From the NCBI RefSeq assembly GCF_010993735.1, contig NZ_WQNI01000003.1, positions 124,001 through 188,000 on the forward strand: 64,000 nucleotides of DNA, in the 5' to 3' direction. This DNA comes from Chelativorans alearensis (GTDB taxonomy: Bacteria > Pseudomonadota > Alphaproteobacteria > Rhizobiales > Rhizobiaceae). The notes below the pieces were generated by a model. It worked only from the letters and a program-made list of their open reading frames with translations, had not been told where the DNA came from and made no database searches. Numbering within the stretch: position 1 is the stretch's first letter; each line of letters opens with the position of its first letter. Of this stretch, positions 4,296-22,771 are shown in pieces. Position numbers and translations under genes: made by a program.

Positions 4296-5156
4296 TCAAC
4301 CCTTCGAAAACACCACCGTCTTGTGCCCGTTGAGCATCACCCGGCTTTCCAGGTGCAGCTTCACCGCCCGCGCCAGCACCCGGCTTTCGATATCCCGCCC
4401 CGCCGCCACGAAGTCCTCCGCGCTCATGGCATGCGTGACCCTTTCCGTCTCCTGCTCGATGATCGGCCCCTCGTCGAGGTCCGGCGTCACGTAGTGCGCC
4501 GTGGCGCCGATGAGCTTCACCCCGCGCTCGTACGCCTGGTGGTAGGGCTTCGCCCCCTTGAAGCTCGGCAGGAAGGAGTGGTGGATGTTGATGATCTTGC
4601 CGAAGAGCCGGTTCGACAGCGCGTTGGAGAGCACCTGCATATAGCGGGCGAGGATGACGAGGTCGGCGCCCGTCTCCTTTACCAGCGCAAGCAGTCTCTC
4701 CTCCTGCTCGGCCTTGTTCTCCCTGGTCACGGGCCAGTGGTGATAGGGGATGCCCTCCGCCTCCGCCGTCGCCCGCGAATCCTCGTGGTTGGAGACGATG
4801 GCAACCACCTCGGCATCGAGCCAGCCGACGCGGATCTGATAGAGGAGGTGGAGAAGCGCGTGGTCGAACTTCGAGACCATGATGACGATCTTCGGCCGCC
4901 GCGAGCGGTTGGCGAGCGCCGTCTTCATGTCGAAGCGGGCGACGGCCGGCTCCAGCGCGCGGGCAATCGCATCGCGGTCCACGCCATCGGGCGCGGTAAA
5001 CGAGATGCGCATGAAGAAGCGGTTGGTCTGCCGGTCCCAGAACTGGTTGGACTCGGCGATGTTGGCGCCGAGGGCGGCAAGCTCCGTGGTCACCGCGGCG
5101 ACGATGCCCGGACGGTCCTCGCAGGAGAGATTGATGTCGAAGGTATTTTCGCTCAT
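4296..5156 (-). CDS. purU: Formyltetrahydrofolate deformylase
   Basis: A 286-residue cytosolic enzyme that hydrolyses 10-formyl-THF to formate and THF. Residues 1-80 form an ACT regulatory domain (SCEDRPGIVAAVTTELA), and 85-286 the formyltransferase-fold catalytic domain with INIHHSFLPSFKG and the LDEGPII aspartate. The start at 5156 (MSENTFDIN) gives the family's normal length; the frame is open upstream but not homologous there. It is the last gene of a minus-strand run mocD-mocE-mocF-panB-like-purU. Rhizobial genomes keep PurU next to oxidative demethylases, where it recycles THF and vents one-carbon units as formate; that role is inferred here. Confidence 0.93.
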   Translation of the reverse strand: MSENTFDINLSCEDRPGIVAAVTTELAALGANIAESNQFWDRQTNRFFMRISFTAPDGVDRDAIARALEPAVARFDMKTALANRSRRPKIVIMVSKFDHALLHLLYQIRVGWLDAEVVAIVSNHEDSRATAEAEGIPYHHWPVTRENKAEQEERLLALVKETGADLVILARYMQVLSNALSNRLFGKIINIHHSFLPSFKGAKPYHQAYERGVKLIGATAHYVTPDLDEGPIIEQETERVTHAMSAEDFVAAGRDIESRVLARAVKLHLESRVMLNGHKTVVFSKG

Positions 5157-5206
5157 GGGCTGGTCTCGGCAGGTGCTGGAAGATGAGGGTTCAGGGTATT
5201 TATCCC

Positions 5207-6010
5207 CTATTGCGCCTCCAGCCAATCGCGGAAGCGGGAAACCGTCTCCCCGTCCGCCTCGACCTTGTGCCCGGCCTGCGGATAAGCGCCCGAGCGCACA
5301 TCGTCGGCGAACTCGCGATAGGCGCCGATGCGCTCCGCCTGCAGGCGGGCGTACTCGGCAGCGAAGTTCCGGTAGGTCTTGGCATGCCGCGGCACGTGGC
5401 CCGTATTGGCGCCCAGCACGTCGTCGGAGAAGAGGTACTGCGCATGGCAGCCGGCGCCGGCGCCCATGGAGATCATGAAGAGGCCGGTGCGCCTGGAAAT
5501 CTCGCTGGCGATCGCCTCCGGCACCACCTCGATCTCCGCCGCAAACGCCCCAGCCTCCTCCAGCGCCCTGACCTGCTTCCAGACGAGCTGCGCCGTCTCG
5601 AACGTCTTGCCCACGGCCTTGAAGCCGCCCGTCCACGTGGCCTTGGAGGGAATGAGGCCGACATGGCCGCACACGGGAATGCCTTCCCCGGCGAGCCGGC
5701 GGACGGTCTCCGTGCCTGCCGAGCAGTAGACCGCGTCCGCCCCTGCCTTATAGAGGCGGAAGGCCCAGCGGATGAAATCCTCTGCCGTGCCGATCTCGAA
5801 GAAGTTGTCACCGGGGACGGCGAAGACCGTGGGCGCGGCATCCCGAAAGGTGGGGTCGAGCATCAGGGAAGGTGGCACCGACACCATGTCGATCTCCGCC
5901 CGCTCGGCGGCCTCTGCTTCTTCCAGCGTTTCCACACGCAGCATGGCGAGCTGGCGCCGGCCGCGCAGCGCGCGCAGGTCGGCGACGGTCTTCCTGTTCG
6001 GCCTTTTCAT
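5207..6010 (-). CDS. Divergent PanB-fold protein (ketopantoate hydroxymethyltransferase-like)
   Basis: A 267-residue TIM-barrel protein of the PEP mutase/PanB superfamily. Similarity to PanB is clear in the second half (GIPVCGHVGLIPSKATWTGGFKAVGK, EIEVVPEAIA with the catalytic glutamate, GHVPRHAKTYRN). The metal-binding GDS aspartate of PanB is replaced by SVP, the LADLPF aspartate region is rearranged (AVPGDNFF), and the active-site lysine (VKIEGG) is missing (VYCSAG). It is therefore unlikely to be the housekeeping pantothenate enzyme. It overlaps mocF by 4 bp and precedes purU by 50 bp, so a role in handling the one-carbon unit from MocDEF demethylation is plausible but unproven. Confidence 0.8.
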   Translation of the reverse strand: MKRPNRKTVADLRALRGRRQLAMLRVETLEEAEAAERAEIDMVSVPPSLMLDPTFRDAAPTVFAVPGDNFFEIGTAEDFIRWAFRLYKAGADAVYCSAGTETVRRLAGEGIPVCGHVGLIPSKATWTGGFKAVGKTFETAQLVWKQVRALEEAGAFAAEIEVVPEAIASEISRRTGLFMISMGAGAGCHAQYLFSDDVLGANTGHVPRHAKTYRNFAAEYARLQAERIGAYREFADDVRSGAYPQAGHKVEADGETVSRFRDWLEAQ

Positions 6011-7200
6011 GCCGGCACCCCTTTCAAAACCGTTTTCAGATTGACCGCCGGGTCCTTCAGCAGCGCGGGGTCCGGCCTGAGCCTCTTTTCCATGATCATC
6101 TCGGCGAGCCTGATGTCCTTGGCGACGGCATTGCCGCTCCCCACCCCGCTGGCCGAGACGAGGCGGCCGGCATCGTCGCGCTGGAACAGGATGAAGGCGC
6201 CGCCACCGAGATCGCGGCGGACATGGCCGAGCGACGGATCGGGCAGGCCCGCCACCTGCAAAGTGAGGTCGTACTGATCGGACCAGAACCAGGGCACGCG
6301 GGCATAAGCCTCCTCGCAGCCCAGCATGGCGCGGGCGGCATGCGCGCCCTGGTCCTGCGCACAGCGCCAGCTTTCCAGCCGCACACGCGCGCCGTTGAAC
6401 GGGAAGGAGCAGCAGTCGCCGGCGGCGAAGATGTGAGGATCGCCGGTGGCGAGCCGACCGTCGACGACGATGCCGTTGGTGACCTCGAGCCCGGCCTCGG
6501 CGGCAAGCCGCGTCTCGGGTTCGGCGCCGACGCCGGCCACCACCATATCGGCCCCGATCGTGCGCCCGTCGGCAAGGGTGATGCCGTTGGTGCGCACTTC
6601 GGCCACACCCGTACCGAGGATCAGTTGGACGCCCTCCGCCAGGTGCCGCTCGGCCATCGCTTCGGCGATCTCCGCCGGCACGATGCGCGCCATCAGCCGC
6701 TCCGCCGCCTCCACCACGGTGACCTTCGCCCCAAGCTTGCGCGCGGTGGCGGCAAGCTCGAGGCCGATGAAGCCGCCGCCGATGATGGCGAGCCTGAGGC
6801 CCGGTCCGAGCGCGTCGAGAATGCCGCGCGCGTCATCGAGGCTGCGCAGGGTGAGTGCCGCCTCCATGCCGGGGAAGCGGCGGGCCCGCGCCCCGGTGGC
6901 GATCAGAAGCTTTTCATAGGGCAGGGCGCTGCCGTCCGAAAGCCGCACACGCCGTTCCGCGCGGTTGATGCTCTCCACACGGCTGCCGCGCATCAGTGCG
7001 ATTTCGGCCTCCGCGTAGCGCGCCTCCTCGGCGATGATCTTCGGTGCCGTCGGCGCCGTCTTGGAAAGGGGCGGGCGCTCGTAGGGCAGGTGGGGCTCCG
7101 CGCCGATGAGCGCTATACCGCCTTCGTGCCCTGCCTCGCGCAGCGCGAAGGCGGCGCGCACGCCGCATTCGCCGGCGCCGATGATGAGGATGTCGCCCAT
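6007..7200 (-). CDS. mocF: MocF-like ferredoxin reductase (FAD/NAD(P)H oxidoreductase)
   Basis: A 397-residue flavoprotein of the rubredoxin/ferredoxin reductase type. It has an FAD-binding GAGECGVRAAF at residues 7-17, HLPYERPPLSK typical of BphA4-like reductases, a second dinucleotide site IIGGGFIGLELA near 145, and the FAD-contacting FAAGDCCSF near 275. It passes electrons from NAD(P)H to the Rieske ferredoxin encoded 6 bp upstream, which feeds the MocD oxygenase. Start ATG at 7200; its end overlaps the PanB-like gene by 4 bp, indicating translational coupling in one operon. Confidence 0.88.
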   Translation of the reverse strand: MGDILIIGAGECGVRAAFALREAGHEGGIALIGAEPHLPYERPPLSKTAPTAPKIIAEEARYAEAEIALMRGSRVESINRAERRVRLSDGSALPYEKLLIATGARARRFPGMEAALTLRSLDDARGILDALGPGLRLAIIGGGFIGLELAATARKLGAKVTVVEAAERLMARIVPAEIAEAMAERHLAEGVQLILGTGVAEVRTNGITLADGRTIGADMVVAGVGAEPETRLAAEAGLEVTNGIVVDGRLATGDPHIFAAGDCCSFPFNGARVRLESWRCAQDQGAHAARAMLGCEEAYARVPWFWSDQYDLTLQVAGLPDPSLGHVRRDLGGGAFILFQRDDAGRLVSASGVGSGNAVAKDIRLAEMIMEKRLRPDPALLKDPAVNLKTVLKGVPA

Positions 7201-7206
7201 GGCGCT

Positions 7207-7521
7207 TCAGCCCACGTCGATGAAGACGCGGCCGTCCTCGACCTTGACGGGATAGGTCTTCAGGTTGACGCAGACCGGGGCGCCCTTGGCCTCCCCCGTG
7301 CGGTAGTCGAAGCGGCCGTTATGCTTCGGGCACTCGATGATGTAGTCCATCACCAGCCCGTCCGCGAGAAGTGCGTGCTCGTGCGTGCAGATCCCGTCCG
7401 TGGCGAAGAAATCGTCATCCGGGCTGCGATAGATGGCGAAGGTCTTTCCGTCGTGGTCGAAGCGGATCAGGTCTTCCTCTTCCACATCGTCGACGGCACA
7501 CGCGTCCACCCATTCGGACAT
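7207..7521 (-). CDS. mocE: MocE-family Rieske 2Fe-2S ferredoxin
   Basis: A 104-residue soluble Rieske protein. The cluster ligands are visible as C-T-H (ICTHEHALL, about residue 42) and C-P-K-H (ECPKHNGRF, about residue 64), i.e. CxH and CxxH. The sequence (VDACAVDDVEEEDLIRF, FAIYRSPDDDFFATDG) is characteristic of the MocE family, defined by the ferredoxin of rhizopine degradation. It carries electrons from MocF to MocD. Placed between the two partner genes with gaps of 6 and 23 bp. Confidence 0.93.
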   Translation of the reverse strand: MSEWVDACAVDDVEEEDLIRFDHDGKTFAIYRSPDDDFFATDGICTHEHALLADGLVMDYIIECPKHNGRFDYRTGEAKGAPVCVNLKTYPVKVEDGRVFIDVG

Positions 7522-7544
7522 GTCTTGCCTCCCTTGGTTGCGGG

Positions 7545-8621
7545 TTATTCGGCGGCCTGCGGCGCCACGTCGTGGAATTCGGCCCGGTAGGGCTTCGCCG
7601 TCGGCGGCAGCTCGCGCTTGATGAAGTAGTCCTCGTAGCGCAGCTGCCGCAGAAACGCCGGGAACATCTCGCGGTAGCCGTCGAGGATCGATGTGTTCGG
7701 CGCCGGCAGGTCGTGCTTGATCATTTCATGCAGCTTCGGCAGCGCGTGATAGGGCACCATGGGGAACATGTGGTGCTCCACGTGGTAGTTCATGTTCCAG
7801 TAGATGAAGCGGCTGACCGGGTTCATATGGACCGTGCGGCTGTTGAGCCGATGGTCGGTCACGTCCTCCGCGAGCCCGCCATGCTGCAGAAGCCCCGTCA
7901 TCACATGGTGCCAGGCGCCATAAAGGCGCGGACCGCCAATGAGGAGGAACGGCAGGATTGAGCCGGTATAGACCGCGACTGCGGCGGTGGCGGCGTAGAT
8001 CGCCACCCAGATACGGGCCACGAAGATCGCCTTCGGCTGCTCCTGTTCCGGAACGAAGGTCTTCTCCTCGGCGCTGATGATGCCGGCGGCGTTGCGCGCC
8101 ATGTCGATGACGGCGTGCCAAACGTCGAGAATGCCGAAGAAATTGAGCGCCAGGCGCAGAAGGTCAGGCGGCCGCATGGCGACGATCTCCGGATCGCGGC
8201 CGACGATGATGGTGTCGGTGTGGTGCCGTGCGTGGCTCCAGCGCCACGTCACCGGGTTGCGCATCATGGTGAAGGAGGCGATTTGGTAGACGGCGTCGTT
8301 CATCCAGCGCGTCTTGAACGCGGTGCCGTGGCCGCATTCGTGCCAGCGGGAATCGCCGGCCGAGCCGTAGAGCACGCCATAGGCGAGGAAGAGGGGGATC
8401 GACCAGAGGGACGGCCACAGCCATGCGGCCGCGCCGGCAAAGACCGCCATGCCGCCGAGCCAGATGATGGTATCGCGTATGGCCGGCCCGTCGCTGCGCT
8501 TCATCAGCGCCTTCATCTCCTTGCGGGAGATGTCCGTGTGATACCATTCGGCCGAAGCAAGGCCGGTCTCGACGGCGCGGCTGGCATTCGGCCCGATAAG
8601 GCTGTAATCGCGTTTGGCCAT
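7545..8621 (-). CDS. mocD: MocD-like membrane di-iron oxygenase (fatty-acid desaturase fold)
   Basis: A 358-residue membrane protein with the three histidine boxes of the AlkB/desaturase family: HECGH (in SRWHECGHGTAF), HARHH (in WSHARHHTDT) and HVEHH (in NYHVEHHMFP). It has several hydrophobic segments (for example LGGMAVFAGAAAWLWPSLWSIPLFLAYGVLYG). The start chosen at 8621 has GGAGGAGGT about 8 bases upstream; an upstream in-frame start adds a non-homologous stretch. In rhizopine degradation MocD with MocE and MocF removes the O-methyl group of 3-O-methyl-scyllo-inosamine. Here the next genes are inositol catabolic, so an O-methyl-inositol-type substrate is the best guess. Divergent from a LacI gene. 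Confidence 0.87.
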   Translation of the reverse strand: MAKRDYSLIGPNASRAVETGLASAEWYHTDISRKEMKALMKRSDGPAIRDTIIWLGGMAVFAGAAAWLWPSLWSIPLFLAYGVLYGSAGDSRWHECGHGTAFKTRWMNDAVYQIASFTMMRNPVTWRWSHARHHTDTIIVGRDPEIVAMRPPDLLRLALNFFGILDVWHAVIDMARNAAGIISAEEKTFVPEQEQPKAIFVARIWVAIYAATAAVAVYTGSILPFLLIGGPRLYGAWHHVMTGLLQHGGLAEDVTDHRLNSRTVHMNPVSRFIYWNMNYHVEHHMFPMVPYHALPKLHEMIKHDLPAPNTSILDGYREMFPAFLRQLRYEDYFIKRELPPTAKPYRAEFHDVAPQAAE

Positions 8622-8729
8622 CTCTCTGGCACCTCCTCCGATGGCCTTGATGCTACGCATAGGCTTGAGAGTCCTCAAGCGGCATGCAATTTTTTCTATC
8701 ATTTTCTATCAAATAATGATTAGATTTCC

Positions 8730-8745
8730 TGATAGATCCTTATCA
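8730..8745. promoter_or_regulatory. Operator TGATAGATCCTTATCA in the mocD/LacI divergent region
   Basis: This 16-base near-palindrome lies 14 bp before the LacI start and about 110 bp upstream of mocD. Its reverse complement recurs, with 14 of 16 matches, at 9846-9861 in front of the TIM-barrel gene. Half-site-like CTATCA words also occur at 8695-8712. The shared site suggests the LacI protein at 8759 controls both the moc operon and the following plus-strand operon. Confidence 0.6.
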
Positions 8746-8758
8746 AGGGGAGGTTTCG

Positions 8759-9790
8759 ATGGGGCGGCGTCCGACCATCGCCGATCTGGCAAGGAAGGCC
8801 GGCGTCAGCGTCGCCACCGTCGACCGGGTCCTGAACGGCCGCCACCGCGTCCGCGAGGAGACGGCGCGCCGTGTCTACGAGGCGGCGAGCGAGATCGGCT
8901 ATCACGCCGCCGCCCTTATCCACCAGCGCATCACCGCCGACCTGCCGAGGATGAACTTCGCCTTCCTTCTGCAAAAGGAGGCGCAACCTTTCTACCAGGC
9001 ATTCGGCAAGGCCCTGCAGGAGGCGGCCGAGGCGACGACCGGCGTGCGCGTCAACGCGCATATCGAGTATGTGAAAAACCAGACGCCGGCGGAGGTGGCG
9101 GAGCGGCTGGAGGCGCTCGGCCAGCGCGCTCAGGCGGTCGCCGCCACCAGTCTTGACCATCACACTGTGACGCAGGCCGTTGAGGCATTGAAGACCGAGG
9201 GCAAGCCCGTCTTCTCGCTGCTGTCGGATTTCGCCCAGGGCGTGCGCGAAAGCTATGTGGGCTTGAACAATCTCAAGGTCGGGCGCATGGCCGCCTGGCT
9301 CATCTCGCGCACCGCGCCGCGCCCCGGCAAGGTGGCGGTTTTCGTCGGCAGTCACCGCTGGCATGGGCACGAACTGCGTGAAACCGGCTTCCGCAGCTAC
9401 TTTCGTGAATACGCGCCGCAATTCGATATCCTGGAGACGCTGGTCAATCTGGAGACGCGGCAAGTCACCTACGAGGCGACGCTGAACCTTATGGACCGGT
9501 ACCCCGACATCGTCGGCTTCTACGTCGCCGGCGGCGGCATGGAAGGCGCCATCGCGGCGCTCCGCGACGAGCCGCCGGATCCGTTGCCCTCGGTCGTCGT
9601 CAACGAACTGACGCAGGATTCGGCCGCCGCCCTTCAGGATCACCAGATCGTCGCCGCCATCGCCACGCCGCTTCCCGCCCTTTGCCGTGCGCTGCTGGAC
9701 CACATGGCAAGCGCGGTGCGCGAAGGGCCGTCGGAGACCCCGGGCCAGCTTTTCCTGACGCCGGCGCTACATGTGCCGGAAAGCATATGA
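8759..9790 (+). CDS. LacI-family regulator of the moc/inositol-ether locus
   Basis: A 343-residue regulator: HTH at residues about 5-24 (TIADLARKAGVSVATVDRVLN), hinge, then a type 1 periplasmic-binding-like effector domain (QKEAQPFYQAFGKALQEAAE; VGFYVAGGGMEGAIAALRDE). It belongs to the DNA-binding branch whose effector domains resemble ribose/inositol-binding proteins. The ATG at 8759 follows GGGGAGG. The gene is divergent from mocD and precedes the TIM-barrel isomerase gene; copies of the same operator flank it, so it likely senses the imported substrate or an intermediate. Confidence 0.9.
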   Translation: MGRRPTIADLARKAGVSVATVDRVLNGRHRVREETARRVYEAASEIGYHAAALIHQRITADLPRMNFAFLLQKEAQPFYQAFGKALQEAAEATTGVRVNAHIEYVKNQTPAEVAERLEALGQRAQAVAATSLDHHTVTQAVEALKTEGKPVFSLLSDFAQGVRESYVGLNNLKVGRMAAWLISRTAPRPGKVAVFVGSHRWHGHELRETGFRSYFREYAPQFDILETLVNLETRQVTYEATLNLMDRYPDIVGFYVAGGGMEGAIAALRDEPPDPLPSVVVNELTQDSAAALQDHQIVAAIATPLPALCRALLDHMASAVREGPSETPGQLFLTPALHVPESI

Positions 9791-9845
9791 TCCCCACTGC
9801 CTCTGTCGCCCATTGCTGGGCGCATGATGCCTAATGAGATGTTGT

Positions 9846-9861
9846 AGATAAGAATCTATCA
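9846..9861. promoter_or_regulatory. Second copy of the LacI operator before the TIM-barrel gene
   Basis: AGATAAGAATCTATCA here is the reverse complement of the site at 8730-8745 with two mismatches. It lies about 110 bp before the gene at 9970 in a 179-bp AT-richer gap, where a promoter would be expected. The remainder of the gap shows nothing else recognisable. Confidence 0.55.
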
Positions 9862-9969
9862 TAAATGATGGATTTTCCCGCAGGATTGCGTTGACCGCCT
9901 GTGGGCGGCTATTCATCCTCTTGCTCCAAGGCGGCCGCCTTCCCTTCGGCCCGCCAAGGAGGACCGATC

Positions 9970-10803
9970 ATGACGGCAGAAAGCCCCGCTTTCGCGCTCA
10001 ACCACATGTGCGCACCTGGCCTTTCCATTTCCGACTTCTTCGATCTGGCGAGGGCAATCGGTGCGGTGGGCGTCGAAATCCGCAACGATATCGACGGCAA
10101 TGCCATTGCCGACGGCACGGAGCCGGCGGCGATTGCCGAGGCCGCCGCCGCCCGTGGCCTGCGCGTCATCTCCATCAATGCGCTGCAGCGCTTCAACGCC
10201 TGGGATGATGCGCGCGAGGAAGAGGCCCGCGCGCTCGTCGCTTATGCGAAGGCATGCGGGGCCGAGGCCCTGGTGCTGGTGCCCGCCAATGACGGCACGG
10301 GCCGGGCAAACGGCGAGCGTCAGGCAAACCTGCGCATCGCGTTGAAGGCGCTGCGGCCGATCCTCGCCGAAGCCGGGATCGTCGGCCTGGTGGAGCCGCT
10401 CGGCTTCGAAACCTCCTCCTTGCGCTACAAGTCCGAGGCGGTGCAGGCGATCGAGGCGCTTGGCGCCAGCGGCACCTTCCGTATTGTCCATGATACGTTC
10501 CATCACCATTTGGCGGGCGAGACGGCGCTTTTTGCGGCCCATACCGGCCTCGTGCACATCTCCGGTGTCACCGACGGCGCCATCGCCACGGCGCAGATGC
10601 GCGATGGTCACCGCGTCCTCGTCGACGAGCATGACCGGCTCGACAATACCGGCCAGATCGCGAGGCTTCTCTCAGCCGGGTATGATGGGCCGCTGTCCTT
10701 CGAGCCCTTTTCGGAGGCTGTGCACGGGCTGCCCGACCTTGGCGCCGCGCTTGCCCGCAGCATGGCCCATGTCTCGGCGCATTCGCGCCGCCAGGCGGCA
10801 TGA
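9970..10803 (+). CDS. TIM-barrel sugar isomerase/epimerase (IolI/MocC-like AP endonuclease-2 family)
   Basis: A 277-residue xylose-isomerase-like TIM barrel. The ATG at 9970 (MTAESPAFALNHM) follows AAGGAGGA and was preferred to a GTG 69 bp upstream. Recognisable elements: the GAVGVEIRNDID strand, LVLVPANDG, GLVEPLGFETSS (metal-binding Glu), IVHDTFHHHLAG (Asp/His ligands), LVHISGVTD and PLSFEPFSE at the end. Such enzymes act in inositol catabolism as inosose isomerases (IolI) or in rhizopine use (MocC). It is the first gene of the plus-strand transporter run; its exact substrate is unknown. Confidence 0.85.
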   Translation: MTAESPAFALNHMCAPGLSISDFFDLARAIGAVGVEIRNDIDGNAIADGTEPAAIAEAAAARGLRVISINALQRFNAWDDAREEEARALVAYAKACGAEALVLVPANDGTGRANGERQANLRIALKALRPILAEAGIVGLVEPLGFETSSLRYKSEAVQAIEALGASGTFRIVHDTFHHHLAGETALFAAHTGLVHISGVTDGAIATAQMRDGHRVLVDEHDRLDNTGQIARLLSAGYDGPLSFEPFSEAVHGLPDLGAALARSMAHVSAHSRRQAA

Positions 10804-10843
10804 AACGAACGAGGAGACCGAATACGCCTTGACGTGGCGGCAG

Positions 10844-11034: not shown

Positions 11035-11979
11035 ATGAAAAAGCTTTTGCTGGGCGTTGCCGTTTCAGCGCTGATGACGACGTCGGCCTTTGCCGAAACG
11101 ATCGGTGTCACCATGGCGCTGTTCGACGACAACTTCCTCACCGTGCTGCGCAACGGCATGCAGGACTACGCCGACGAGCTCGGTGATGTGGAATTGCAGG
11201 TCGAGGACGCGCAGAACGACGTGGGCAAGCAGCTCAACCAGATCCAGAACTTCATCGCCTCCGGCGTCGACGCGGTGATCGTCAACCCGGTCGACACCGA
11301 CGCCACGGTCGCCATGACCAAGGCGGCGGCCGATGCCGGCGTGGTGCTGGTCTACGTCAACCGCGAGCCGGTGAATGTCGACGATCTGCCAGAGAACCAG
11401 GCCTTCGTGGCCTCCGACGAGCGCGAGTCCGGCACCCTGGAGACGCAGGAGATCTGCCGCCTCCTTAAGGAGCAGGGCAAGGGCGACGGCGCCAAGATCG
11501 TCGTCATGATGGGCGAATTGTCCAATCAGGCCGCCCGCCAGCGCACCCAGGACGTCCACGATGTCATCGCCACGGAGGAGTGTTCCTTCATGGAGATCGT
11601 CGAGGAGCAGACGGCCAATTGGCAGCGCACGGAAGCTGCCGACCTTATGACCAACTGGCTGTCGGCCGGGCTCGAGTTCGACGCCCTCGTCTCCAACAAT
11701 GACGAGATGGCCATCGGCGCCATCCAGGCCATGAAGACGGCCGGCATTTCCATGGACGAGATGCTGGTCGGCGGCGTCGATGCCACCCAGGACGCGCTGG
11801 CCGCCATGGCCGCCGGCGATCTCGATGTGACCGTGTTCCAGGACGCGGCGGGCCAGGGCAAGGGCGCGGTCGACACGGCGCTGAAGCTTGTGCGCGGTGA
11901 AGAGGTCGACCAGAAGGTGTATATTCCCTTCCAGCTCGTCACGCCCGAGAACATGGAAAAGTTCACGAGCATGAACTGA
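11035..11979 (+). CDS. Inositol/ribose-type periplasmic binding protein of ABC importer
   Basis: A 314-residue type 1 (ribose-cluster) binding protein. The ATG at 11035 lies 7 bases after GGAGGAG; the signal peptide MKKLLLGVAVSALMTTSAFA is textbook. The mature protein starts ETIGVTMALFDDNFLTVLRNGM; QIQNFIASGVDAVIVNPVDTDA, VYVNREP and SNNDEMAIGAIQAMK are typical of IbpA/MocB-like myo-inositol or rhizopine binders. With the next two genes (permease, ATPase) it forms a complete high-affinity importer. Context argues for an inositol or O-methyl/amino-inositol. Confidence 0.92.
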   Translation: MKKLLLGVAVSALMTTSAFAETIGVTMALFDDNFLTVLRNGMQDYADELGDVELQVEDAQNDVGKQLNQIQNFIASGVDAVIVNPVDTDATVAMTKAAADAGVVLVYVNREPVNVDDLPENQAFVASDERESGTLETQEICRLLKEQGKGDGAKIVVMMGELSNQAARQRTQDVHDVIATEECSFMEIVEEQTANWQRTEAADLMTNWLSAGLEFDALVSNNDEMAIGAIQAMKTAGISMDEMLVGGVDATQDALAAMAAGDLDVTVFQDAAGQGKGAVDTALKLVRGEEVDQKVYIPFQLVTPENMEKFTSMN

Positions 11980-12079
11980 CACACATGGGCTTGAGCCGTC
12001 GGGCGGGCCTGACCCCGCCCGACGACCAGACGGCGGCCGGCATAAGGCCGGTACGCCCGCCAAGGGAGGTATGGCCGTC

Positions 12080-13123: not shown

Positions 13124-13124
13124 G

Positions 13125-13169
13125 GCATGATCCCGAAAAGTGGATGCCGGTTTTCGGAAAAGATCATGC
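13125..13169. repeat. Rhizobial intergenic palindrome (GCATGATCCCGAAAAG element)
   Basis: Immediately after the permease stop, GCATGATCCCGAAAAG (13125-13140) is mirrored by TTTTCGGAAAAGATCATGC (13151-13169) around a TGGATGCCGG centre. This is a widespread short palindromic repeat of Rhizobiales. A partial ATCATG copy follows at 13188. It separates permease and ATPase genes inside an apparent operon and could modulate their relative expression through mRNA structure. Confidence 0.7.
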
Positions 13170-13235
13170 TCAAACAAAGAGATAGATCATGATGCCGATT
13201 CAACGAAAGGCACCGGATCTAGGCAGGAGGATAAA

Positions 13236-14859: not shown

Positions 14860-14911
14860 CCCGTTGCGGAACCGAAAACAGCAACCTTCCAAACAGCGAA
14901 AGACAACGGAA

Positions 14912-15916: not shown

Positions 15917-15928
15917 CGTTGCCAAGAG

Positions 15929-15944: not shown

Positions 15945-15986
15945 AGCGCGATAGCGTTGGGAGAATAGTCTCTAGGGCGGAAAGAC

Positions 15987-16820
15987 ATGGATGCACGTTC
16001 GGCACCGGCAAGTATAGAGGAGTTGCTCGACCGCATCCTCGAGGTCTCTGACGGCTTGCCGAAGCGGCTCAAACAGTGCGCCGACTACGTGGCGGCCAAT
16101 CCCGACCGCGTCGCCGTCTCGACCGTGGCCGAGATGTCCGAGGCGGCCGGCGTGCAGCCATCCGCCTTCATGCGTTTCTGCCAGGTTTTGGGCTTCTCCG
16201 GCTTCTCGCAGATGCAGCGCCTGTTCCGCGACTCCTATGCGCAGAACTGGCCGGACTATGCGACCCGCCTGGAGAAGCTGCGCGAGAGCGGGGCCGGCAG
16301 TCCCTCTGCGCTTCTCGCCGAGTTCGTCGAGGCGGGGCGGTTGTCGCTCGAAAATCTCGCCAAGACGCTCGACCCGCGCACGCTCGACGCGGCCATCAAG
16401 GCACTGTCGGAAGCGAACATGGTGCACATTGTCGGCATGCGCCGCGCATTCTCCGTCGCCTCCTACCTCGCCTACGCCTTCGAGAAGATGAACGTGCCGA
16501 CCATGCTGCATGACAGCGTCGGCAAGCTCGACAGCCGCCATGCCATCCGCGCCGGCGATGCCGTGATCGCCATCACTTTCGCCCCCTATTCGCCCGAGAC
16601 GGTGGCGCTGGCGGAGGCCGGCGCGCGCGCCGGCGCCAGGGTGGTGGCCATCACCGACGCGCTGGCAAGCCCCTTGCGGCCGGTCACGCCGCTCCTGCTT
16701 ACCGTCTCTGAAGCCGATTTCGGCGATTTCCGCTCGCTTTCGGCAACACTTTCGCTCGCCGTGGCGCTGGTCGTCGCCGTGGGCACGGCCAATCGTGCCC
16801 GGAAAAATGGAATTTCATGA
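15987..16820 (+). CDS. iolR: RpiR-family regulator of inositol catabolism
   Basis: A 277-residue regulator with an N-terminal HTH_6 domain (LKQCADYVAANPDRVAVSTVAEMSEAAGVQPSAFMRF, residues about 30-66) and a C-terminal SIS sugar-phosphate-binding domain (VHIVGMRRAFSVASYLAYAFEKM; ITFAPYSPETVALAEAGARAGARVVAITD). In rhizobia the gene of this type between iolG-like and iolC genes represses the iol operon and senses a phosphorylated intermediate such as the product of IolC. A matching palindrome precedes it. Confidence 0.92.
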   Translation: MDARSAPASIEELLDRILEVSDGLPKRLKQCADYVAANPDRVAVSTVAEMSEAAGVQPSAFMRFCQVLGFSGFSQMQRLFRDSYAQNWPDYATRLEKLRESGAGSPSALLAEFVEAGRLSLENLAKTLDPRTLDAAIKALSEANMVHIVGMRRAFSVASYLAYAFEKMNVPTMLHDSVGKLDSRHAIRAGDAVIAITFAPYSPETVALAEAGARAGARVVAITDALASPLRPVTPLLLTVSEADFGDFRSLSATLSLAVALVVAVGTANRARKNGIS

Positions 16821-16853
16821 TTGATCTTGCGTGCAAAATGGAACATATCTTCT
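16804..16853. promoter_or_regulatory. IolR-like half-sites in the iolC promoter region
   Basis: AAAATGGAAT at 16804-16813 (overlapping the iolR end) and AAAATGGAACAT at 16835-16846; the latter extends to GGAACATATCTTCT, one mismatch from GGAA-N6-TTCC. The 12-base AAAATGGAACAT is identical to a word before the binding-protein gene at 10886-10897 (other strand). Together they suggest common control of transport and catabolism. Confidence 0.5.
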
Positions 16854-16865
16854 ATATTCGGATAG

Positions 16866-16976
16866 GGCGTCATCCCGAAAGCCGAAGGCTGTCCGGGACC
16901 CGTTCCGGAGCGTGAACGACACGGAATAGATCCCGGACAAGCCTTCGCTTCGCTCAAGCTTTCCGGGATGACAGCG
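16866..16976. repeat. Inverted repeat element in the iolC leader
   Basis: GCGTCATCCCGAAAGC near 16867 faces its inverted relative GCTTTCCGGGATGACAGC near 16959-16976; inner arms GTCCGGGACCC and GGATCCCGGAC pair as well, giving a long imperfect hairpin of about 110 bases. CCGGGATGACAGC-type repeats are dispersed in many alphaproteobacteria. It stands between the putative IolR sites and the iolC start, so it would be in the mRNA leader. Confidence 0.65.
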
Positions 16977-17036
16977 GGTATGTTGCGGCGCCCGGAAATC
17001 CGCTGGAACGCGCATCGATCAGGGAGGAGTGATTTG

Positions 17037-18953
17037 ATGAAGCCCCTCGACGTCATCACCATTGGCCGTTCGTCGGTCGATCTCTACGGCGCGCAGGTCG
17101 GCGGGCGGCTGGAGGACATGGCCTCCTTCAACAAATATATCGGCGGCTCGCCCACCAACATCGCCGCGGGCGCGGCGCGCCTGGGGCTGAAGTCGGCGCT
17201 GATCACGCGCGTCGGCGACGAGCACATGGGCCGCTTTATCCGCGAGGAGCTGGAGCGCGAGGGCGTCGACGTGCGCGGCGTGAAGACCGATCCCGAGCGG
17301 CTGACCGCGCTGGTGCTCTTGGGAATCCGTGACCAGGAGCAGTTCCCGCTCATCTTCTACCGCGAGAACTGCGCCGACATGGCGCTCGACGAGGACGACA
17401 TCGACGCCGCCTTCATCGCCGAGGCGGGCTGCGTGTGCGCTACCGGCACACACCTGTCGCACCCGCGCACGGAGGCCGCGGTCCTGAAGGCATTGAAGCT
17501 GGCGCGGGAGAGTGGCGCCAGAACGGCGCTCGACATCGATTACCGCCCCAATCTCTGGGGCCTCGCCGGCCATGGCGCGGGCGAAAGCCGCTTCATCGAA
17601 TCCGAGCGGGTGACCGCCAAGCTCCAGAAGACGCTCCCGCTCTTCGACCTGATCGTCGGCACGGAGGAAGAGTTCCACATCGCCGGCGGCTCCACCGGCA
17701 CCATCGAAGCCCTGCGCGCCGTGCGCCGCCTCACCGATGCCGTGCTGGTGTGCAAGCGCGGGCCGATGGGCGCTTCCGCCTTCGCTGGCGACATTCCCGA
17801 CATGCTCGACGAGGGCGAGGCGGGCGAGGGCTTCCCCATCGAGGTCTTCAACGTTCTGGGCGCCGGCGACGGCTTCATGGCCGGGCTCTTGAAGGGCTGG
17901 CTCACCGGCGAGGATTGGCCGACGACGCTGAAGATAGCCAACGCCTGCGGCGCCTTCGCCGTTTCGCGCCACGGCTGCACGCCGGCCTACCCCTCCTGGG
18001 AGGAGCTGCAATATTTCTTCCGCACCGGCATAAAGGACCGCGCCCTGCGCAAGGATGCGGCCTTGGAGCAGGTCCACTGGTCGACCAACCGCAAGGGCAA
18101 CTGGCAGGACATGCGCGTCTTCGCCTTCGACCACCGCATGCAGCTCGAGGAAATGGCCGACAGCGCCGGCGCACCACATGAGCGTATCGGAGCGTTCAAG
18201 GTGCTATGCCTGGAGGCCGCGCGACAGGTATCCGGCGGCAAGCACGGCTACGGCATCCTCTGCGATGGCCGGCACGGCCGAGAGGCGCTCTACCGGGCGG
18301 CCGGCAGCGGCCTGTGGATCGGCCGGCCAGTCGAATGGCCGGGCTCCCGGCCGCTCAGGCTGGAGCCGGAGATCGGGCCGGATTTCGGCGGCGTCGTTGA
18401 ATGGCCGCTGGAGCACGTGGTCAAGGTCCTGTGTTTCTACCATCCCGACGACGACGCCGAGATGAAGGCGCGCCAGGAGGACGTGGTCAAGAGGCTCTTT
18501 GCCGCCAGCCGCCGCAGCAGGTTGGAGATGCTTCTGGAGGTCATCCCCTCCAAGGTACGCCCCGTCGACGATAAGACCGCCGCCGCCGTCATCGATCGCT
18601 TCTACGAGATCGGCGTTTATCCCGACTGGTGGAAGCTGGAGCCGATGATTTCCGGGAAGGCGTGGGAAAACGCCTGCGGCGCCATCAACCGCAACGACCC
18701 CTATACGCGCGGCATCGTCGTCCTGGGGCTCGACGCGCCGGCCGCCGAGCTTGAGGAGAGTTTTGCGGTTGCGGCCGGCTTCGATCTTGTGAAAGGCTTC
18801 GCCGTCGGCCGCACCATCTTCGCCGACGCCGCGCGCCAGTGGCTCGCCGGCGAGATCAGCGACCGGGAGGCCGTCGCCACGATGACAGAGAAATATCGGG
18901 CCCTATGCGAGGTCTGGGACCGCGCACGGGCCAGACAAGGGAGGGCCGCATGA
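17037..18953 (+). CDS. iolC: 5-dehydro-2-deoxygluconokinase fused to DUF2090 domain
   Basis: A 638-residue protein. Residues 1-320 are a PfkB-type kinase (DVITIGRSSVDLYG, IGGSPTNIAAGAARLG, and the catalytic NVLGAGDGFMAGLLKGW) that phosphorylates 2-deoxy-5-keto-gluconate. The C-terminal half (from about 330, QDMRVFAFDHRMQLEEM) is the DUF2090 aldolase-like domain usual in alphaproteobacterial IolC. The start at 17037 follows GGGAGGAG. The stop overlaps the iolD ATG (ATGA). An upstream start would reach into the repeat and was rejected. Confidence 0.95.
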   Translation: MKPLDVITIGRSSVDLYGAQVGGRLEDMASFNKYIGGSPTNIAAGAARLGLKSALITRVGDEHMGRFIREELEREGVDVRGVKTDPERLTALVLLGIRDQEQFPLIFYRENCADMALDEDDIDAAFIAEAGCVCATGTHLSHPRTEAAVLKALKLARESGARTALDIDYRPNLWGLAGHGAGESRFIESERVTAKLQKTLPLFDLIVGTEEEFHIAGGSTGTIEALRAVRRLTDAVLVCKRGPMGASAFAGDIPDMLDEGEAGEGFPIEVFNVLGAGDGFMAGLLKGWLTGEDWPTTLKIANACGAFAVSRHGCTPAYPSWEELQYFFRTGIKDRALRKDAALEQVHWSTNRKGNWQDMRVFAFDHRMQLEEMADSAGAPHERIGAFKVLCLEAARQVSGGKHGYGILCDGRHGREALYRAAGSGLWIGRPVEWPGSRPLRLEPEIGPDFGGVVEWPLEHVVKVLCFYHPDDDAEMKARQEDVVKRLFAASRRSRLEMLLEVIPSKVRPVDDKTAAAVIDRFYEIGVYPDWWKLEPMISGKAWENACGAINRNDPYTRGIVVLGLDAPAAELEESFAVAAGFDLVKGFAVGRTIFADAARQWLAGEISDREAVATMTEKYRALCEVWDRARARQGRAA

Positions 18954-20773
18954 AGACGGTTAGACTGACCGCCGCCCAGGCCGCGACACGCTATCTGGCG
19001 GCACAGATGAACGAGGACGGCGAACCCTTCATCGCCGGCGTGTGGGCGATCTTCGGCCACGGCAATGTCGCAGCCCTCGGCGAGGCGCTTTATGCCGTGC
19101 GCGAGACGTTGCCCACCTATCGCGGCCACAACGAGCAGTCGATGGCGCACGCGGCCATCGCCTATGCCAAGCAGCTTCGCCGCCGGCGCGCCATGGCCGT
19201 CACCTCCTCCATCGGCCCCGGCGCCACCAACATGGTGACGGCCGCCGCCCTTGCCCACGTCAACCGCCTGCCGGTGCTCTTCATGCCCGGCGATGTCTTC
19301 GCAAACCGCGGTCCGGACCCGGTCTTGCAGCAGGTGGAGGACTTTTCCGACGGCACCGTCAGCGTCAACGACTGTTTCCGCCCCGTCTCGCGCTATTTCG
19401 ACCGCATTACGCGGCCGGAGCAGCTTCTGACGGCCCTGCCGCGGGCCTTCCGCACCATGACGGACCCGGCCGACTGCGGCCCCGTCACGCTCGCCTTCTG
19501 CCAAGATGTGCAGGCCGAGGCCTACGACTGGCCGGAGAATTTCTTCGCGCGACAAGTCTGGCGGCAGCGCCGCATCCAGCCCGACCCGGTCGAGGTCGAG
19601 GAAGCGGCAAAGCTCATTGCCGCCGCCAAGGCGCCCGTCATCGTCGCCGGCGGCGGCGTCCATTATTCCCACGCCCACGATGCGTTCAAATTCTTCGTCG
19701 AGGCCCATCGGATCCCGGTGGTGGAGACCCAGGCCGGCAAATCGGTGCTGCCCTGGGACCACCCGTATAACCTTGGCCCGGTCGGCGTGACCGGCTCGTC
19801 CAGCGCCAATCAGCGCTGCGCCGAGGCCGACGTGGTCATCGGCGTCGGCACCCGGTTCCAGGATTTCACCACCGGTTCGTGGTCGCTCTTCTCAAGGCCT
19901 GGGCGCAAGCTCATCAGCCTGAACGTCAACGCCTATGACGCGGTCAAGCATGGCGCCACGCCCCTTTGTGCGGATGCCCGCGTGGGGCTCGAAGCCCTTT
20001 CGCGTGCCCTGGGCGACATGCGGTTCGATCCGCCGGACCCGAAGCTGAAGGCGGACTGGTTCGCCGCCGCCGACGCCGTGACCGCGGCGCCCGAGGACAC
20101 CAACGCGCTGCCCACCGACATGCAGGTGATCGGCGCCGTGCAGCGCGCGGCGACCGAGAACACGGTGGTCATGTGCGCCGCCGGCACCATGCCGGGCGAG
20201 CTTCACAAGCTGTGGAAGGCAGGCCGCCCCGGCTCCTACCACATGGAATACGGCTATTCCTGCATGGGCTATGAGATCGCCGGCGGTATGGGCATCAAGA
20301 TGGCCGAACCCGACCTCGACGTGGTCGTCATGGTGGGTGACGGCTCTTATATGATGATGAACTCGGAGCTGGCGACGGCGGCGATGATGGGCGTCAAGAT
20401 CACCGTCGTCATCACCGACAACCGCGGCTACGGCTGCATCAACCGGCTGCAGATGGCGACCGGCGGCGCCGAGTTCAACAACCTCTTGGACCACGCGCAG
20501 CACGTGAACCCTTCTGAGATCGACTTCGTCGCCCACGCCGCCTCCATGGGCGCCCATGCGGAGAAGGCAGGCTCGATTGCGGAGCTGGAGGACGCGCTGG
20601 CGCGCGCGCGGGCGGCCGATGGTCCCTTCGTCGTCGTCATCGACACCGACCCCTATCCCTCCACCGAGGCCGGCGGCCACTGGTGGGATGTGGCCGTGCC
20701 CGAGGTATCGGAACGCGACGAGGTGAAAAAAGCCCGCGCCGGCTACGAAGCCGCGCTCAAGGAGAGGCTCTGA
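18950..20773 (+). CDS. iolD: 3D-(3,5/4)-trihydroxycyclohexane-1,2-dione hydrolase
   Basis: A 607-residue thiamine-diphosphate enzyme that opens the ring of trihydroxycyclohexanedione to 5-deoxy-glucuronate. Visible: the YRGHNEQSMAH catalytic glutamate near residue 65, a central FAD/DHS-like domain (PVIVAGGGVHYSHAHDAF) and the ThDP site MVGDGSYMMMNSELAT. The start at 18950 overlaps the iolC stop by 4 bp, indicating translational coupling, and it is followed without gap by iolE. Confidence 0.95.
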   Translation: MKTVRLTAAQAATRYLAAQMNEDGEPFIAGVWAIFGHGNVAALGEALYAVRETLPTYRGHNEQSMAHAAIAYAKQLRRRRAMAVTSSIGPGATNMVTAAALAHVNRLPVLFMPGDVFANRGPDPVLQQVEDFSDGTVSVNDCFRPVSRYFDRITRPEQLLTALPRAFRTMTDPADCGPVTLAFCQDVQAEAYDWPENFFARQVWRQRRIQPDPVEVEEAAKLIAAAKAPVIVAGGGVHYSHAHDAFKFFVEAHRIPVVETQAGKSVLPWDHPYNLGPVGVTGSSSANQRCAEADVVIGVGTRFQDFTTGSWSLFSRPGRKLISLNVNAYDAVKHGATPLCADARVGLEALSRALGDMRFDPPDPKLKADWFAAADAVTAAPEDTNALPTDMQVIGAVQRAATENTVVMCAAGTMPGELHKLWKAGRPGSYHMEYGYSCMGYEIAGGMGIKMAEPDLDVVVMVGDGSYMMMNSELATAAMMGVKITVVITDNRGYGCINRLQMATGGAEFNNLLDHAQHVNPSEIDFVAHAASMGAHAEKAGSIAELEDALARARAADGPFVVVIDTDPYPSTEAGGHWWDVAVPEVSERDEVKKARAGYEAALKERL

Positions 20774-21673
20774 ATGATCCGCTACGGCACCAATCCCATC
20801 GCCTGGTCCAACGACGACGACCAGCAAATAGGCGCCCACATCCCGCTGGAGCAGTGCCTTCGCGAGGCCGCCGCGATCGGCTTTTCCGGCATCGAGAAAG
20901 GCCACAAGATGCCCTCCGACGGCGAGGCGCTGAGACAAGTGCTGGCCGCCCACGGCCTCGTCTTCATCTCCGGCTGGCACTCGCTGAACCTGCTTGTCAA
21001 CGACGTGGAGACGGAAAAGCGCGCGATCCAGCCGCATCTCGACATGCTGAAGGCGAACGCTTGCCAAGTCTGCATCGTCTGCGAGACCTCCAACGCCATC
21101 CATGGCAATGATACGGTCGCTCTCAAGGACAAGCCGGTGCTGGCCGAGGAGGATTGGCCGGAATTCTGCGCCGGTGTCGAGGCCGTCGCCGAATATTGCC
21201 TGAGCCAGGGGATCGACCTCGTCTACCATCATCACATAGGGACGATCGTTGAGACCCGCCAGGAGATCGGCCGCCTGATGGCCGGTACGGGGCCGGCAAC
21301 GAAGCTCCTCCTAGACGTCGGCCACGCCTGGTTCGGCGGCTCGGACCCCGTCGAGCTCGCTCGCGCCTATATGGACCGGGTACGTCACTTCCACGCCAAG
21401 AACGTCCGCCCCGCGATCAAGAAGCAGGTGGAGGAGGAGGGGCTTTCCTTCCTCGAAGGCGTACGCCGCGGCGTCTTCACCGTGCCCGGCGACCCGGAAG
21501 GCGCGCTCGACTTCGAACCGGTACTGAAGGTCGCCGCCGAGCACGGCTATGACGGCTGGCTCGTCATCGAGGCCGAGCAGGATCCACTGAAGGCCGACCC
21601 GGTCAAGTACCAGTCGATGGGGCTGAAGGCGCTCAAGGAGGCGGCCAGGGCCGCCGGGTTGGACCGAACCTGA
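20774..21673 (+). CDS. iolE: Myo-inosose-2 dehydratase
   Basis: A 299-residue TIM-barrel dehydratase converting 2-keto-myo-inositol to trihydroxycyclohexanedione. It begins [16 protein letters not shown], the IolE signature; [35 protein letters not shown] and [14 protein letters not shown] carry the metal ligands. The ATG directly follows the iolD TGA with GGAGAGG upstream. Second step of the pathway after IolG. Confidence 0.95.
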
Positions 21674-21732
21674 GGACGACGTGGATCGATCCCCTCATTC
21701 ATCTTGCCCCATAGACCATCTATAGTCCCCCG

Positions 21733-21945
21733 ATGCACAAGCTCCTCGACCTTCATCATCCATTCTTCGCCCCGCTCTGGCGGCGGGTGGCTATCATCGT
21801 GGTCTGCCTCGGCTGGGGCATCTTCGAGTTCATCATGGGCGCGCCCTTCTGGGGCATGCTCTTCGTGGGTCTCGGCATCTATTGCGCCTGGGTGTTCCTA
21901 TATGACTACGAGCCCCGCACCGAGACCGACAACAAGACGGAATAG
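21733..21945 (+). CDS. Small two-helix membrane protein between iolE and iolB
   Basis: A 70-residue protein with two clear transmembrane helices (about residues 18-36 and 38-58: VAIIVVCLGWGIFEFIM and FWGMLFVGLGIYCAWVFLY) and a charged tail YEPRTETDNKTE. It lies 59 bp after iolE and 10 bp before iolB in the same direction, so it is very probably expressed with them. No function is known to me; such small proteins occur in related rhizobial genomes. A ribosome site is not obvious before the ATG. Confidence 0.75.
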   Translation: MHKLLDLHHPFFAPLWRRVAIIVVCLGWGIFEFIMGAPFWGMLFVGLGIYCAWVFLYDYEPRTETDNKTE

Positions 21946-21955
21946 GGAGAGATAG

Positions 21956-22771
21956 ATGTCGAAACTCCTGGTCAGGCCCAGTGGCACCGCCGGCAAGGTG
22001 CATGACATCACGCCGCGCTCGGCCGGCTGGAGCTATGTCGGTTTCGGCCTCTATCGCCTGAAGGCGGGCGAGACCGCCCAGGAGGAGACCGGAGACACCG
22101 AGGTCATCCTTGTGCTGGTCGAGGGCAAAGCCGAGATTTCGGCCGCCGGAAAGGATTTCGGCGAACTGGGCGAGCGCATGGACGTCTTCGAGCGCCTGCC
22201 GCCCCATGCCGCCTATGTGCCCAATGCTTCGCACTGGATGGCGAAAGCCACGACCGATTGCACGCTCGCCGTCTGCACGGCGCCAGGCAAGGGTGGCCAC
22301 GAGGCCCAGGTGATCGGCCCGGCCGGAATCTCCCTCGCCGAGCGCGGCAAGGGTGCCAACACCCGCTACATCCACGCCATCGCCATGGAAGAGCGCGACG
22401 TCGCCGACAGCCTGCTGGTGACAGAGGTCTACACACCCCAGGGCAACTGGTCGTCGTACCCGCCACACCGGCACGACGAGGACAACTGGCCCGAGATGAC
22501 CTATCTGGAGGAGACCTACTACCACCGCCTGAACCCCGCTAAAGGATTCGGCTTTCAGCGCGTCTTCACCGAGAACGGCGAACTCGACGAGGCGATCGCC
22601 GTCGAAAATCACGACGTCGTCCTCGTCCCGCGTGGCCACCACCCCTGCGGCGCGCCTTATGGCTACGAGATGTACTATCTTAACGTCATGGCCGGCCCCC
22701 GCCGCGCCTGGCGCTTCAAGAACCACCCCGACCACGACTGGATCTTCCAGCGGGACAGCGCAAGCGGCTAA
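21956..22771 (+). CDS. iolB: 5-deoxy-glucuronate isomerase
   Basis: A 271-residue double-cupin isomerase converting 5-deoxy-glucuronate to 2-deoxy-5-keto-gluconate, the substrate of IolC. Motifs WSYVGFGLYRLKAGE, NWSSYPPHRHDEDN (metal-binding histidines), EETYYHRLNPAKGFGFQRVF and HHPCGAPYGYEMYYLNVMAGP are diagnostic. Starts at ATG 21956 after GGGAGAG. Last gene of the iolC-D-E-(small)-B operon. The later step (IolJ aldolase or its equivalent) is not separately encoded here; the DUF2090 half of IolC may supply it. Confidence 0.95.
   Translation: MSKLLVRPSGTAGKVHDITPRSAGWSYVGFGLYRLKAGETAQEETGDTEVILVLVEGKAEISAAGKDFGELGERMDVFERLPPHAAYVPNASHWMAKATTDCTLAVCTAPGKGGHEAQVIGPAGISLAERGKGANTRYIHAIAMEERDVADSLLVTEVYTPQGNWSSYPPHRHDEDNWPEMTYLEETYYHRLNPAKGFGFQRVFTENGELDEAIAVENHDVVLVPRGHHPCGAPYGYEMYYLNVMAGPRRAWRFKNHPDHDWIFQRDSASG

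Follow-up and report, generated by a model that had tools for sequence, protein, structure and literature searches.

A block of genes at positions 4296 to 22771 of a 64,000-nucleotide stretch of the Chelativorans alearensis genome (5.70 Mb; contig NZ_WQNI01000003.1, positions 124001 to 188000, hereafter the window) raises the question of which compound it serves, and what becomes of the methyl group that its products are predicted to remove. An earlier note on this DNA had proposed import of an O-methylated inositol, removal of the methyl group as formaldehyde, disposal via folate, and entry of the ring into the Iol pathway, and the comparative evidence favors each of these steps. We read the locus, with a probability of about 0.68, as one for O-methyl-inositol catabolism, most likely of D-pinitol, in which a PanB-fold protein (here PanBL) would transfer the one-carbon (C1) unit and the Iol enzymes would degrade the ring. 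The most novel part is the PanB-fold gene, which that note had left uninterpreted and which recurs beside unrelated oxygenases of the demethylating type.

The demethylation block

All of the genes named in the earlier note were found at 4296 to 22771 by profile scans. The minus-strand genes follow the order mocD, mocE, mocF, PanBL, and purU, with gaps of 23 bases (mocD to mocE), 6 bases (mocE to mocF), and 50 bases (PanBL to purU) and a 4-base overlap of mocF and PanBL. They are listed here with their closest family matches; L111 is the locus on plasmid pRLa11 of Rhizobium leguminosarum A1, described below.

7545 to 8621, minus strand: mocD, membrane di-iron oxygenase, proposed O-demethylase (PF00487 FA_desaturase, 123.1 bits; 77% identity to MocD of L111)
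7207 to 7521, minus strand: mocE, Rieske ferredoxin (TIGR02377, 180.5 bits, cutoff 136.15)
6007 to 7200, minus strand: mocF, ferredoxin reductase (Pyr_redox_2 and Reductase_C; 54% identity to MocF of L111)
5207 to 6010, minus strand: PanBL, PanB-fold protein, proposed to transfer formaldehyde to tetrahydrofolate (THF) (PF02548, 141.7 bits)
4296 to 5156, minus strand: purU, 10-formyl-THF deformylase (TIGR00655, 335.5 bits, cutoff 285.95; start ATG)

Read directly from the sequence, MocD has three histidine boxes (HECGH, HARHH, and HVEHH) and MocE has the Rieske ligands CTH-x16-CPKH, intact as the earlier note had described them. The PanB-fold gene and purU that it had placed after mocF were likewise recovered there.

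PanBL is distinct from the pantothenate enzyme PanB

PanBL has the PanB fold, but it scored 101.9 to 102.6 bits against the PanB (ketopantoate hydroxymethyltransferase) equivalog model TIGR00222, below the cutoff of 207.55, whereas a bona fide PanB encoded elsewhere in the same genome exceeded this cutoff. Three residues of PanB, D84, K112, and E114, which we take to belong to the metal/substrate site, were replaced in all 34 aligned PanBLs but kept in 21 of 21 PanBs; the column of PanB D45 was a gap in 34/34 PanBLs, at a place where the alignment is unreliable. The PanBL alignment had 23 invariant columns in its 34 rows, and PanBL and PanB fell on separate branches (support, 100/100). According to the available part of PMC3082293 (the papers cited below were also available in part), the Rhizobium etli ortholog RHE_PE00443 does not complement panB. 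Given the separate PanB and these differences in score, residues, and complementation, a role for PanBL as a second pantothenate enzyme was dismissed.

PanBL accompanies oxygenases of three unrelated families

Relatives of PanBL were found in at least 506 stretches in a collection of 84,980 species genomes, of which the best 80 were analyzed, with an accompanying gene counted as present at an identity of at least 35%. Being nearest to the query, these best 80 favor MocD-type loci. MocD was present in 74 of them, MocE in 73, MocF in 37, the LacI-family regulator of the window (LacI2) in 43, and its periplasmic binding protein (SBP2) in 33; at least one of MocD, MocE, and MocF was present in 77. 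Three loci (L135, L166, and L185) had none of the three Moc proteins, with L185 carrying an iol run and L135 a purU. The co-occurrence that the earlier note had suggested looking for is there: the mocDEF-PanBL(-purU) block recurs in many genomes, in some of them beside iol genes, and this recurrence is more than chance.

A second sample comprised 39 PanBL loci from regions within the window's family, 40 of which were chosen by hand and are not random. Twenty-two of these had MocD only, seven an FA_hydroxylase (PF04116), seven a PhyH protein (PF05721), one both MocD and PhyH, and two none. In all, 37 of the 39 chosen loci had an oxygenase from these three families, which are unrelated to each other. 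One locus (L073) was counted via a 25% match to PhyH, while two that had been fetched for their MocD (L099 and L100) were excluded (with them, 39/41), as was L074; the gene there turned out to match true PanB. The sugar genes around PanBL vary, being inositol genes, a Gfo/DUF4432 set, GH31 or α-amylase genes, or ribokinase-RbsD-DeoC with PhyH. A role in C1 transfer fits PanBL better than a role on one sugar, since an oxygenase and PanBL stay while the sugar genes change. One operon (L116) has the order mocDEF-PanBL-purU-folD, and with FolD and PurU beside PanBL, the step that is missing is that from formaldehyde to methylene-THF.

Several PanBL loci had other compositions. In L059 and L062, where MocD is missing, PanBL is accompanied by FA_hydroxylase (PF04116), MocE, MocF, PurU, and an IolG-like gene, and the FA_hydroxylase may stand in for MocD as another membrane di-iron oxygenase. 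Seven loci (L066, L067, L069 to L072, and L076) have a PhyH dioxygenase, a CUT2-type importer, ribokinase, RbsD, PanBL, and an AraC regulator, with DeoC in four, a set that would suit the breakdown of an O-methylated pentose; mocDEF is present in addition in L067. In L058 and L063, mocDE-PanBL lies beside GH31, accompanied in L063 by α-amylase genes, and use of an O-methylated glucan is possible. The idea that PanBL of L191, from a Rhodobacteraceae metagenome-assembled genome, is followed by a C1-oxidizing complex was dropped, as the following frames (L191, 10790 to 15511) look by eye like an NAD-linked hydrogenase cluster.

Tentatively, and at somewhat short of even odds, PanBL may represent a new family, a formaldehyde (hydroxymethyl)-THF transferase that arose from the PanB fold by loss of the α-keto-acid/metal site and was recruited beside MocD, FA_hydroxylase, and PhyH for removal of O-methyl groups from cyclitols and sugars, including rhizopine. 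Such an enzyme would be the folate counterpart of Fae, the formaldehyde-activating enzyme; the analogy is one of role only, i.e., the proposed loading of a C1 carrier, and the carriers differ, being tetrahydromethanopterin for Fae and, as proposed, THF for PanBL (PMC7073904). The same study describes the spontaneous condensation of formaldehyde with THF as too slow in vivo, considers PanB as a possible catalyst, and leaves an uncharacterized enzyme possible, for which PanBL is a concrete candidate. In titles and abstract openings, with the subscription literature mostly uncovered, we found no publication tying a PanB-like or purU gene to mocDEF or to O-demethylation.

An inositol-linked sister of the rhizopine system

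A tblastn search with MocD against plasmid records gave 287 records with a match, among them L111. This locus contains an IolE-like gene, Gfo/Idh genes, and genes for a binding protein and a GntR-aminotransferase regulator (MocR, by Pfam), as well as mocDEF; mocF is followed by a gene annotated as 3-methyl-2-oxobutanoate hydroxymethyltransferase (PanBL) and by purU, and further on by genes for a DegT aminotransferase, an MFS protein, and a GMC oxidoreductase. The rhizopine genes have been given as mocDEF, mocR, mocBA, and mocC, with a proposed MocR box, AAAGYGGYTCT, repeated at a spacing of 13 bases (PMC10107442). In L111, such a pair lies just upstream of mocD (11902 to 11936, 2 mismatches; 0/100 shuffles); this mocD-side pair was the only one found. 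Because of MocR and this published box pair, L111 is taken as a genuine-looking rhizopine locus and, since it carries PanBL-purU, a rhizopine locus would also have this tail. In PMC10107442 the rhizopine unit ends at mocF, and nowhere in its main text do purU, panB, hydroxymethyltransferase, or formaldehyde appear; PanBL-purU would extend the pathway beyond that end.

The comparison of MocD suggested in the earlier note gave 77% identity between the window and this MocR- and box-bearing locus, and identities were 74% for MocE, 68% for the binding protein, 66% for PanBL, 54% for MocF, and 51% for PurU. Both loci have mocDEF, a MocB-like binding protein, and PanBL and purU downstream of mocF. 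The window differs in lacking MocR, as the earlier note had said (no GntR-aminotransferase among 20 scanned proteins, 19 from genes and 1 from a spurious frame), and in lacking a moc-box pair at up to 3 mismatches. It has a FixV-type LacI regulator and an IolI-like isomerase gene, encodes a permease and an ATPase of its own, and carries the whole iolG-R-C-D-E-B run. A separate MocA-type Gfo/Idh enzyme was not found, the sole Gfo/Idh protein scanned at the locus being IolG, over its equivalog cutoff. As the block is the same but MocR and the box pair are missing, the sequence comparison points to an inositol-linked sister of the rhizopine system and not to a rhizopine locus.

Loci with the window's set of regulator, TIM barrel, binding protein, permease, and ATPase (LacI2-TIM-SBP2-Perm-ATP) were termed A-type, and those with DUF4432/Gfo neighbors B-type. 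In a tree of MocD with 108 rows, the window was placed among A-type loci, including that of Chelativorans sp. YIM 93263 (90% identity), and most B-type rows fell together, while the rhizopine MocD lay in an unresolved part also holding A types. The rhizopine binding-protein model NF052284 proved misleading as a marker, since the window protein scored 37.1 and the L111 binding protein beside mocR 39.8 against a cutoff of 420. Matches over the cutoff occurred in 6 of 247 genomes, and no mocD or mocE was found at five of these six loci (L089 and L104 to L107) in the fetched stretches of 12.9 to 19.5 kb.

Inositol genes and the probable substrate

The importer, short-chain dehydrogenase/reductase (SDR), iolG, iolR, and iolCDEB of the earlier note were found, as it had them, on the opposite strand, by family or equivalog matches. 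The divergent LacI gene (8759 to 9790) and the IolI-like TIM-barrel gene (9970 to 10803) had not been part of that note. The CUT2-type ATP-binding cassette (ABC) importer spans 11035 to 14015.

8759 to 9790, plus strand: lacI2, FixV-type LacI regulator (PF00356 and PF13407; relatives upstream of nifA)
9970 to 10803, plus strand: AP_endonuc_2 TIM barrel, proposed IolI-like inosose isomerase (PF01261; solved relatives 4hgx and 2q02)
11035 to 11979, plus strand: periplasmic binding protein, MocB-like (PF13407, Peripla_BP_4; 68% identity to the L111 binding protein; nearest solved chain 4yo7)
12071 to 13123, plus strand: ABC permease (PF02653)
13140 to 14015, plus strand: ABC ATPase, single domain (PF00005)
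14080 to 14859, plus strand: SDR oxidoreductase (NF004847, 359.5 bits, cutoff 240)
14864 to 15916, plus strand: iolG, inositol 2-dehydrogenase (TIGR04380, 429.4 bits, cutoff 355)
15987 to 16820, plus strand: iolR, RpiR-type regulator (HTH_6 and SIS)
16968 to 18953, plus strand: iolC fused to DUF2090, kinase-aldolase (NF047869, 735.5 bits, cutoff 600; DUF2090)
18950 to 20773, plus strand: iolD (TIGR04377, 925.8 bits, cutoff 715, match from residue 42 onward in the longest frame; uncertain start, with candidates at 18839, 18905, and 18950)
20774 to 21673, plus strand: iolE (TIGR04379, 353.5 bits, cutoff 290)
21956 to 22771, plus strand: iolB (TIGR04378, 330.9 bits, cutoff 205)

Like PurU and MocE, the products IolG, IolC, IolD, IolE, and IolB exceeded their curated cutoffs, and with IolA encoded elsewhere in the genome (657.1 bits, cutoff 448.5) the Iol set was complete as tested. 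A FolD domain is also encoded elsewhere. The locus differs from the Iol pathway for myo-inositol by the joined demethylation block. A-type loci repeat the window set, some adding IolG and the SDR. In L090, mocDEF adjoins iolR/iolC, and opposite mocDEF, L099 and L100 have an operon of the order TIM-SBP2-ATP-Perm-iolG-iolC-iolD-iolE-iolB-PanBL, the iol-PanBL end of which is the same in L185 of Aminobacter aganoensis. Full iol runs are rare, with IolC and IolD in 1 and IolG in 13 of the best 80 PanBL loci.

The solved chains nearest to the TIM barrel were 4hgx and 2q02 (E ~1e-39), the latter presumably from the Salmonella inositol island. For the binding protein the nearest was, by a wide margin (212 versus 132 bits), 4yo7, which we take to have been deposited with myo-inositol. 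IolI converts the ketone of D-chiro-inositol to 2-keto-myo-inositol, and an inosose isomerase is required for D-chiro-inositol, derived from pinitol, but not for myo-inositol, derived from ononitol. Pinitol is preferred as the substrate because a gene for an IolI-like isomerase fits D-chiro-inositol and would be superfluous for myo-inositol products.

In an RNA-seq study of Rhizobium mesoamericanum, Mimosa pudica exudate, in which pinitol is the most concentrated compound (145 μM), induced mocDEF 1.53- to 2.11-fold and a mocB-like importer operon 4- to 4.7-fold, along with idhA and iol genes (PMC5789663). Since the exudate is richest in pinitol, use of a methyl-inositol is a simpler reading of this response than rhizopine catabolism. 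The cyclitols pinitol and ononitol are common in legumes, and ononitol occurs in their nodules as well (PMC8730688); with cyclitols so distributed and an exudate so composed, methyl-inositol genes would shape competition in the rhizosphere. The earlier note had rated methyl-inositols as likely as true rhizopine. That they are possible substrates stands, but the equal odds do not, since a plain methyl-inositol, pinitol best of all, appears more likely.

Proposed pathway and alternative explanations

In the pathway that we propose, the CUT2-type importer would take up the methylated cyclitol, and MocD would hydroxylate its O-methyl group with electrons passed from NAD(P)H via MocF and MocE. The resulting hemiacetal would release, or transfer, formaldehyde, and PanBL, without the metal-site residues of PanB, would move the C1 unit onto THF to give 5,10-methylene-THF. 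FolD could then oxidize this to 10-formyl-THF, from which PurU would yield formate and THF. The freed inositol would be oxidized by IolG and/or the SDR and, where required, isomerized by the IolI-like TIM barrel before its degradation via IolE, IolD, IolB, IolC, and IolA. LacI2 would sense the methyl-inositol or a product of it and act via TGATAGA sites in the mocD-lacI2 interval and before the isomerase gene.

Several points weigh against this scheme. PurU was present in 12 of the best 80 PanBL loci (10 at ≥50% identity; several contigs end early) and FolD in one. Nine of 67 A-type rows had no PanBL within 20 kb (several of the nine were fetched for lacking it), and L115 of Nitratireductor has purU without PanBL. 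PanBL is not indispensable, since some mocDEF loci lack it and must get by with spontaneous condensation or with other routes for formaldehyde. Two residues of PanB, E181 and H136, were kept in 34/34 PanBLs, which would suit a retained aldol-type reaction. Deletion of panB and ltaE in Escherichia coli had no effect on formaldehyde-dependent growth, so that PanB of E. coli itself is not the formaldehyde-THF catalyst (PMC7073904). The authors of PMC5789663 infer rhizopine catabolism, and their study covered the exudate only, pinitol alone not being part of it. Finally, the substrate, product, and enzyme activities of the locus genes are predicted from comparison of sequences.

The retained E181 and H136, the mocDEF loci without PanBL, and the adjacency of PanBL to DeoC in four ribokinase-RbsD loci would also suit a PanBL that acts as a retro-aldolase or lyase on a ring or sugar intermediate, or is a noncatalytic partner, with formaldehyde reacting unaided with THF or glutathione. 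We consider this unlikely, though a serious contender, since PanBL persists while both the sugar genes (inositol, Gfo/DUF4432, GH31, ribokinase) and the oxygenase family change, L116 has PurU and FolD after it, and its invariant columns argue against an inert protein. About equally doubtful is that the same mechanism serves another methyl-inositol (ononitol, sequoyitol, bornesitol, or quebrachitol) instead of pinitol: sequence does not fix the isomer, and ononitol too is found in nodules (PMC8730688), but the isomerase gene beside mocDEF would not be needed for products of the myo-inositol type, and the inducing exudate is dominated by pinitol (PMC5789663).

A true rhizopine locus, importing 3-O-methyl-scyllo-inosamine for demethylation by MocDEF and completion by the Iol enzymes, would account for the high identities of MocD, MocE, and the binding protein to L111 and for the adjoining inositol genes. 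This is nevertheless improbable, as neither MocR among the scanned proteins nor a moc-box pair was found, a LacI regulator stands in place, and the single Gfo/Idh enzyme is over the IolG cutoff; moreover, most A-type loci would then belong to rhizopine users, of which there is no sign. Least probable is that MocD is a lipid desaturase or hydroxylase in an incidental iol neighborhood. Its sole Pfam match is FA_desaturase, and its weak NCBIfam matches are to a desaturase and an arginine hydroxylase, but its recurrent linkage to the importer, IolG, and iol operons, and its 77% identity to MocD of the rhizopine locus L111, speak against such a role.

The LacI2 regulator and its putative operator

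The LacI-family protein FixV activates nifA2 in Mesorhizobium loti, possibly in response to an inositol-derivative signal, and the same study notes FixV homologs that are encoded divergently from mocD and followed by an epimerase gene (PMC3538637). The window, with lacI2 divergent from mocD and the TIM-barrel gene downstream, has this layout. Among 22 genomes chosen for having a LacI2 homolog, four (G226, G064, G147, and G165) had one (55 to 61% identity) 0.3 to 0.7 kb upstream of an over-cutoff NifA. Two regions of the window are candidate operators.

8695 to 8736, no strand: TGATAGA three times in the mocD-lacI2 interval, proposed operator
9855 to 9872, no strand: imperfect palindrome TCTATCATAAATGATGGA before the TIM-barrel gene, proposed operator

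TGATAGA occurred in 23 of 41 lacI2-mocD regions; for random pieces taken from these loci the mean was 0.88 and the maximum 4. The count of 23 is post hoc because the word was picked from counts in these same regions. The lacI2-TIM and FixV-NifA regions are different ones; the word was found in 9 of 33 of the former (versus 1.0) and in 3 of 4 of the latter (versus 0.17 in shuffles), there each time 15 to 17 bases after the regulator match. Most Rhodobacteraceae lacI2-mocD regions lacked it. These counts suggest that TGATAGA may be the LacI2 operator. A full palindromic operator, TCTATCATNNNTGATNGA, was rejected, as its 5 window matches at up to 3 mismatches were reached by 16 of 100 shuffles and only the half-site TGATAGA was enriched. 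The likeness to FixV-nifA2, drawn from layout and relatives, lies in the type of regulator, the epimerase-like gene downstream, and the word just after the regulator in 3/4 regulator-nifA loci; a difference is that lacI2 of the window lies opposite mocD instead of nifA. By this link, the inositol-derivative signal proposed for nifA2 of M. loti (PMC3538637) could be a methyl-inositol.

The window holds 12 TGATAGA words in all, against 2.5 expected, of which those at 8695, 8705, 8730, and 9855 lie in the two regions and the other eight outside both. Four of the latter, at 47688 to 48643, had no iol or moc gene among the listed frames of at least 150 amino acids and are probably due to base composition.

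Genes adjoining the purU side

On the purU side, the block is adjoined at 498 to 4097 by genes for an SBP_bac_1 binding protein, a second LacI regulator, and an aldose epimerase. An epimerase with 67 to 69% identity to the latter adjoins purU in L038 and L039.

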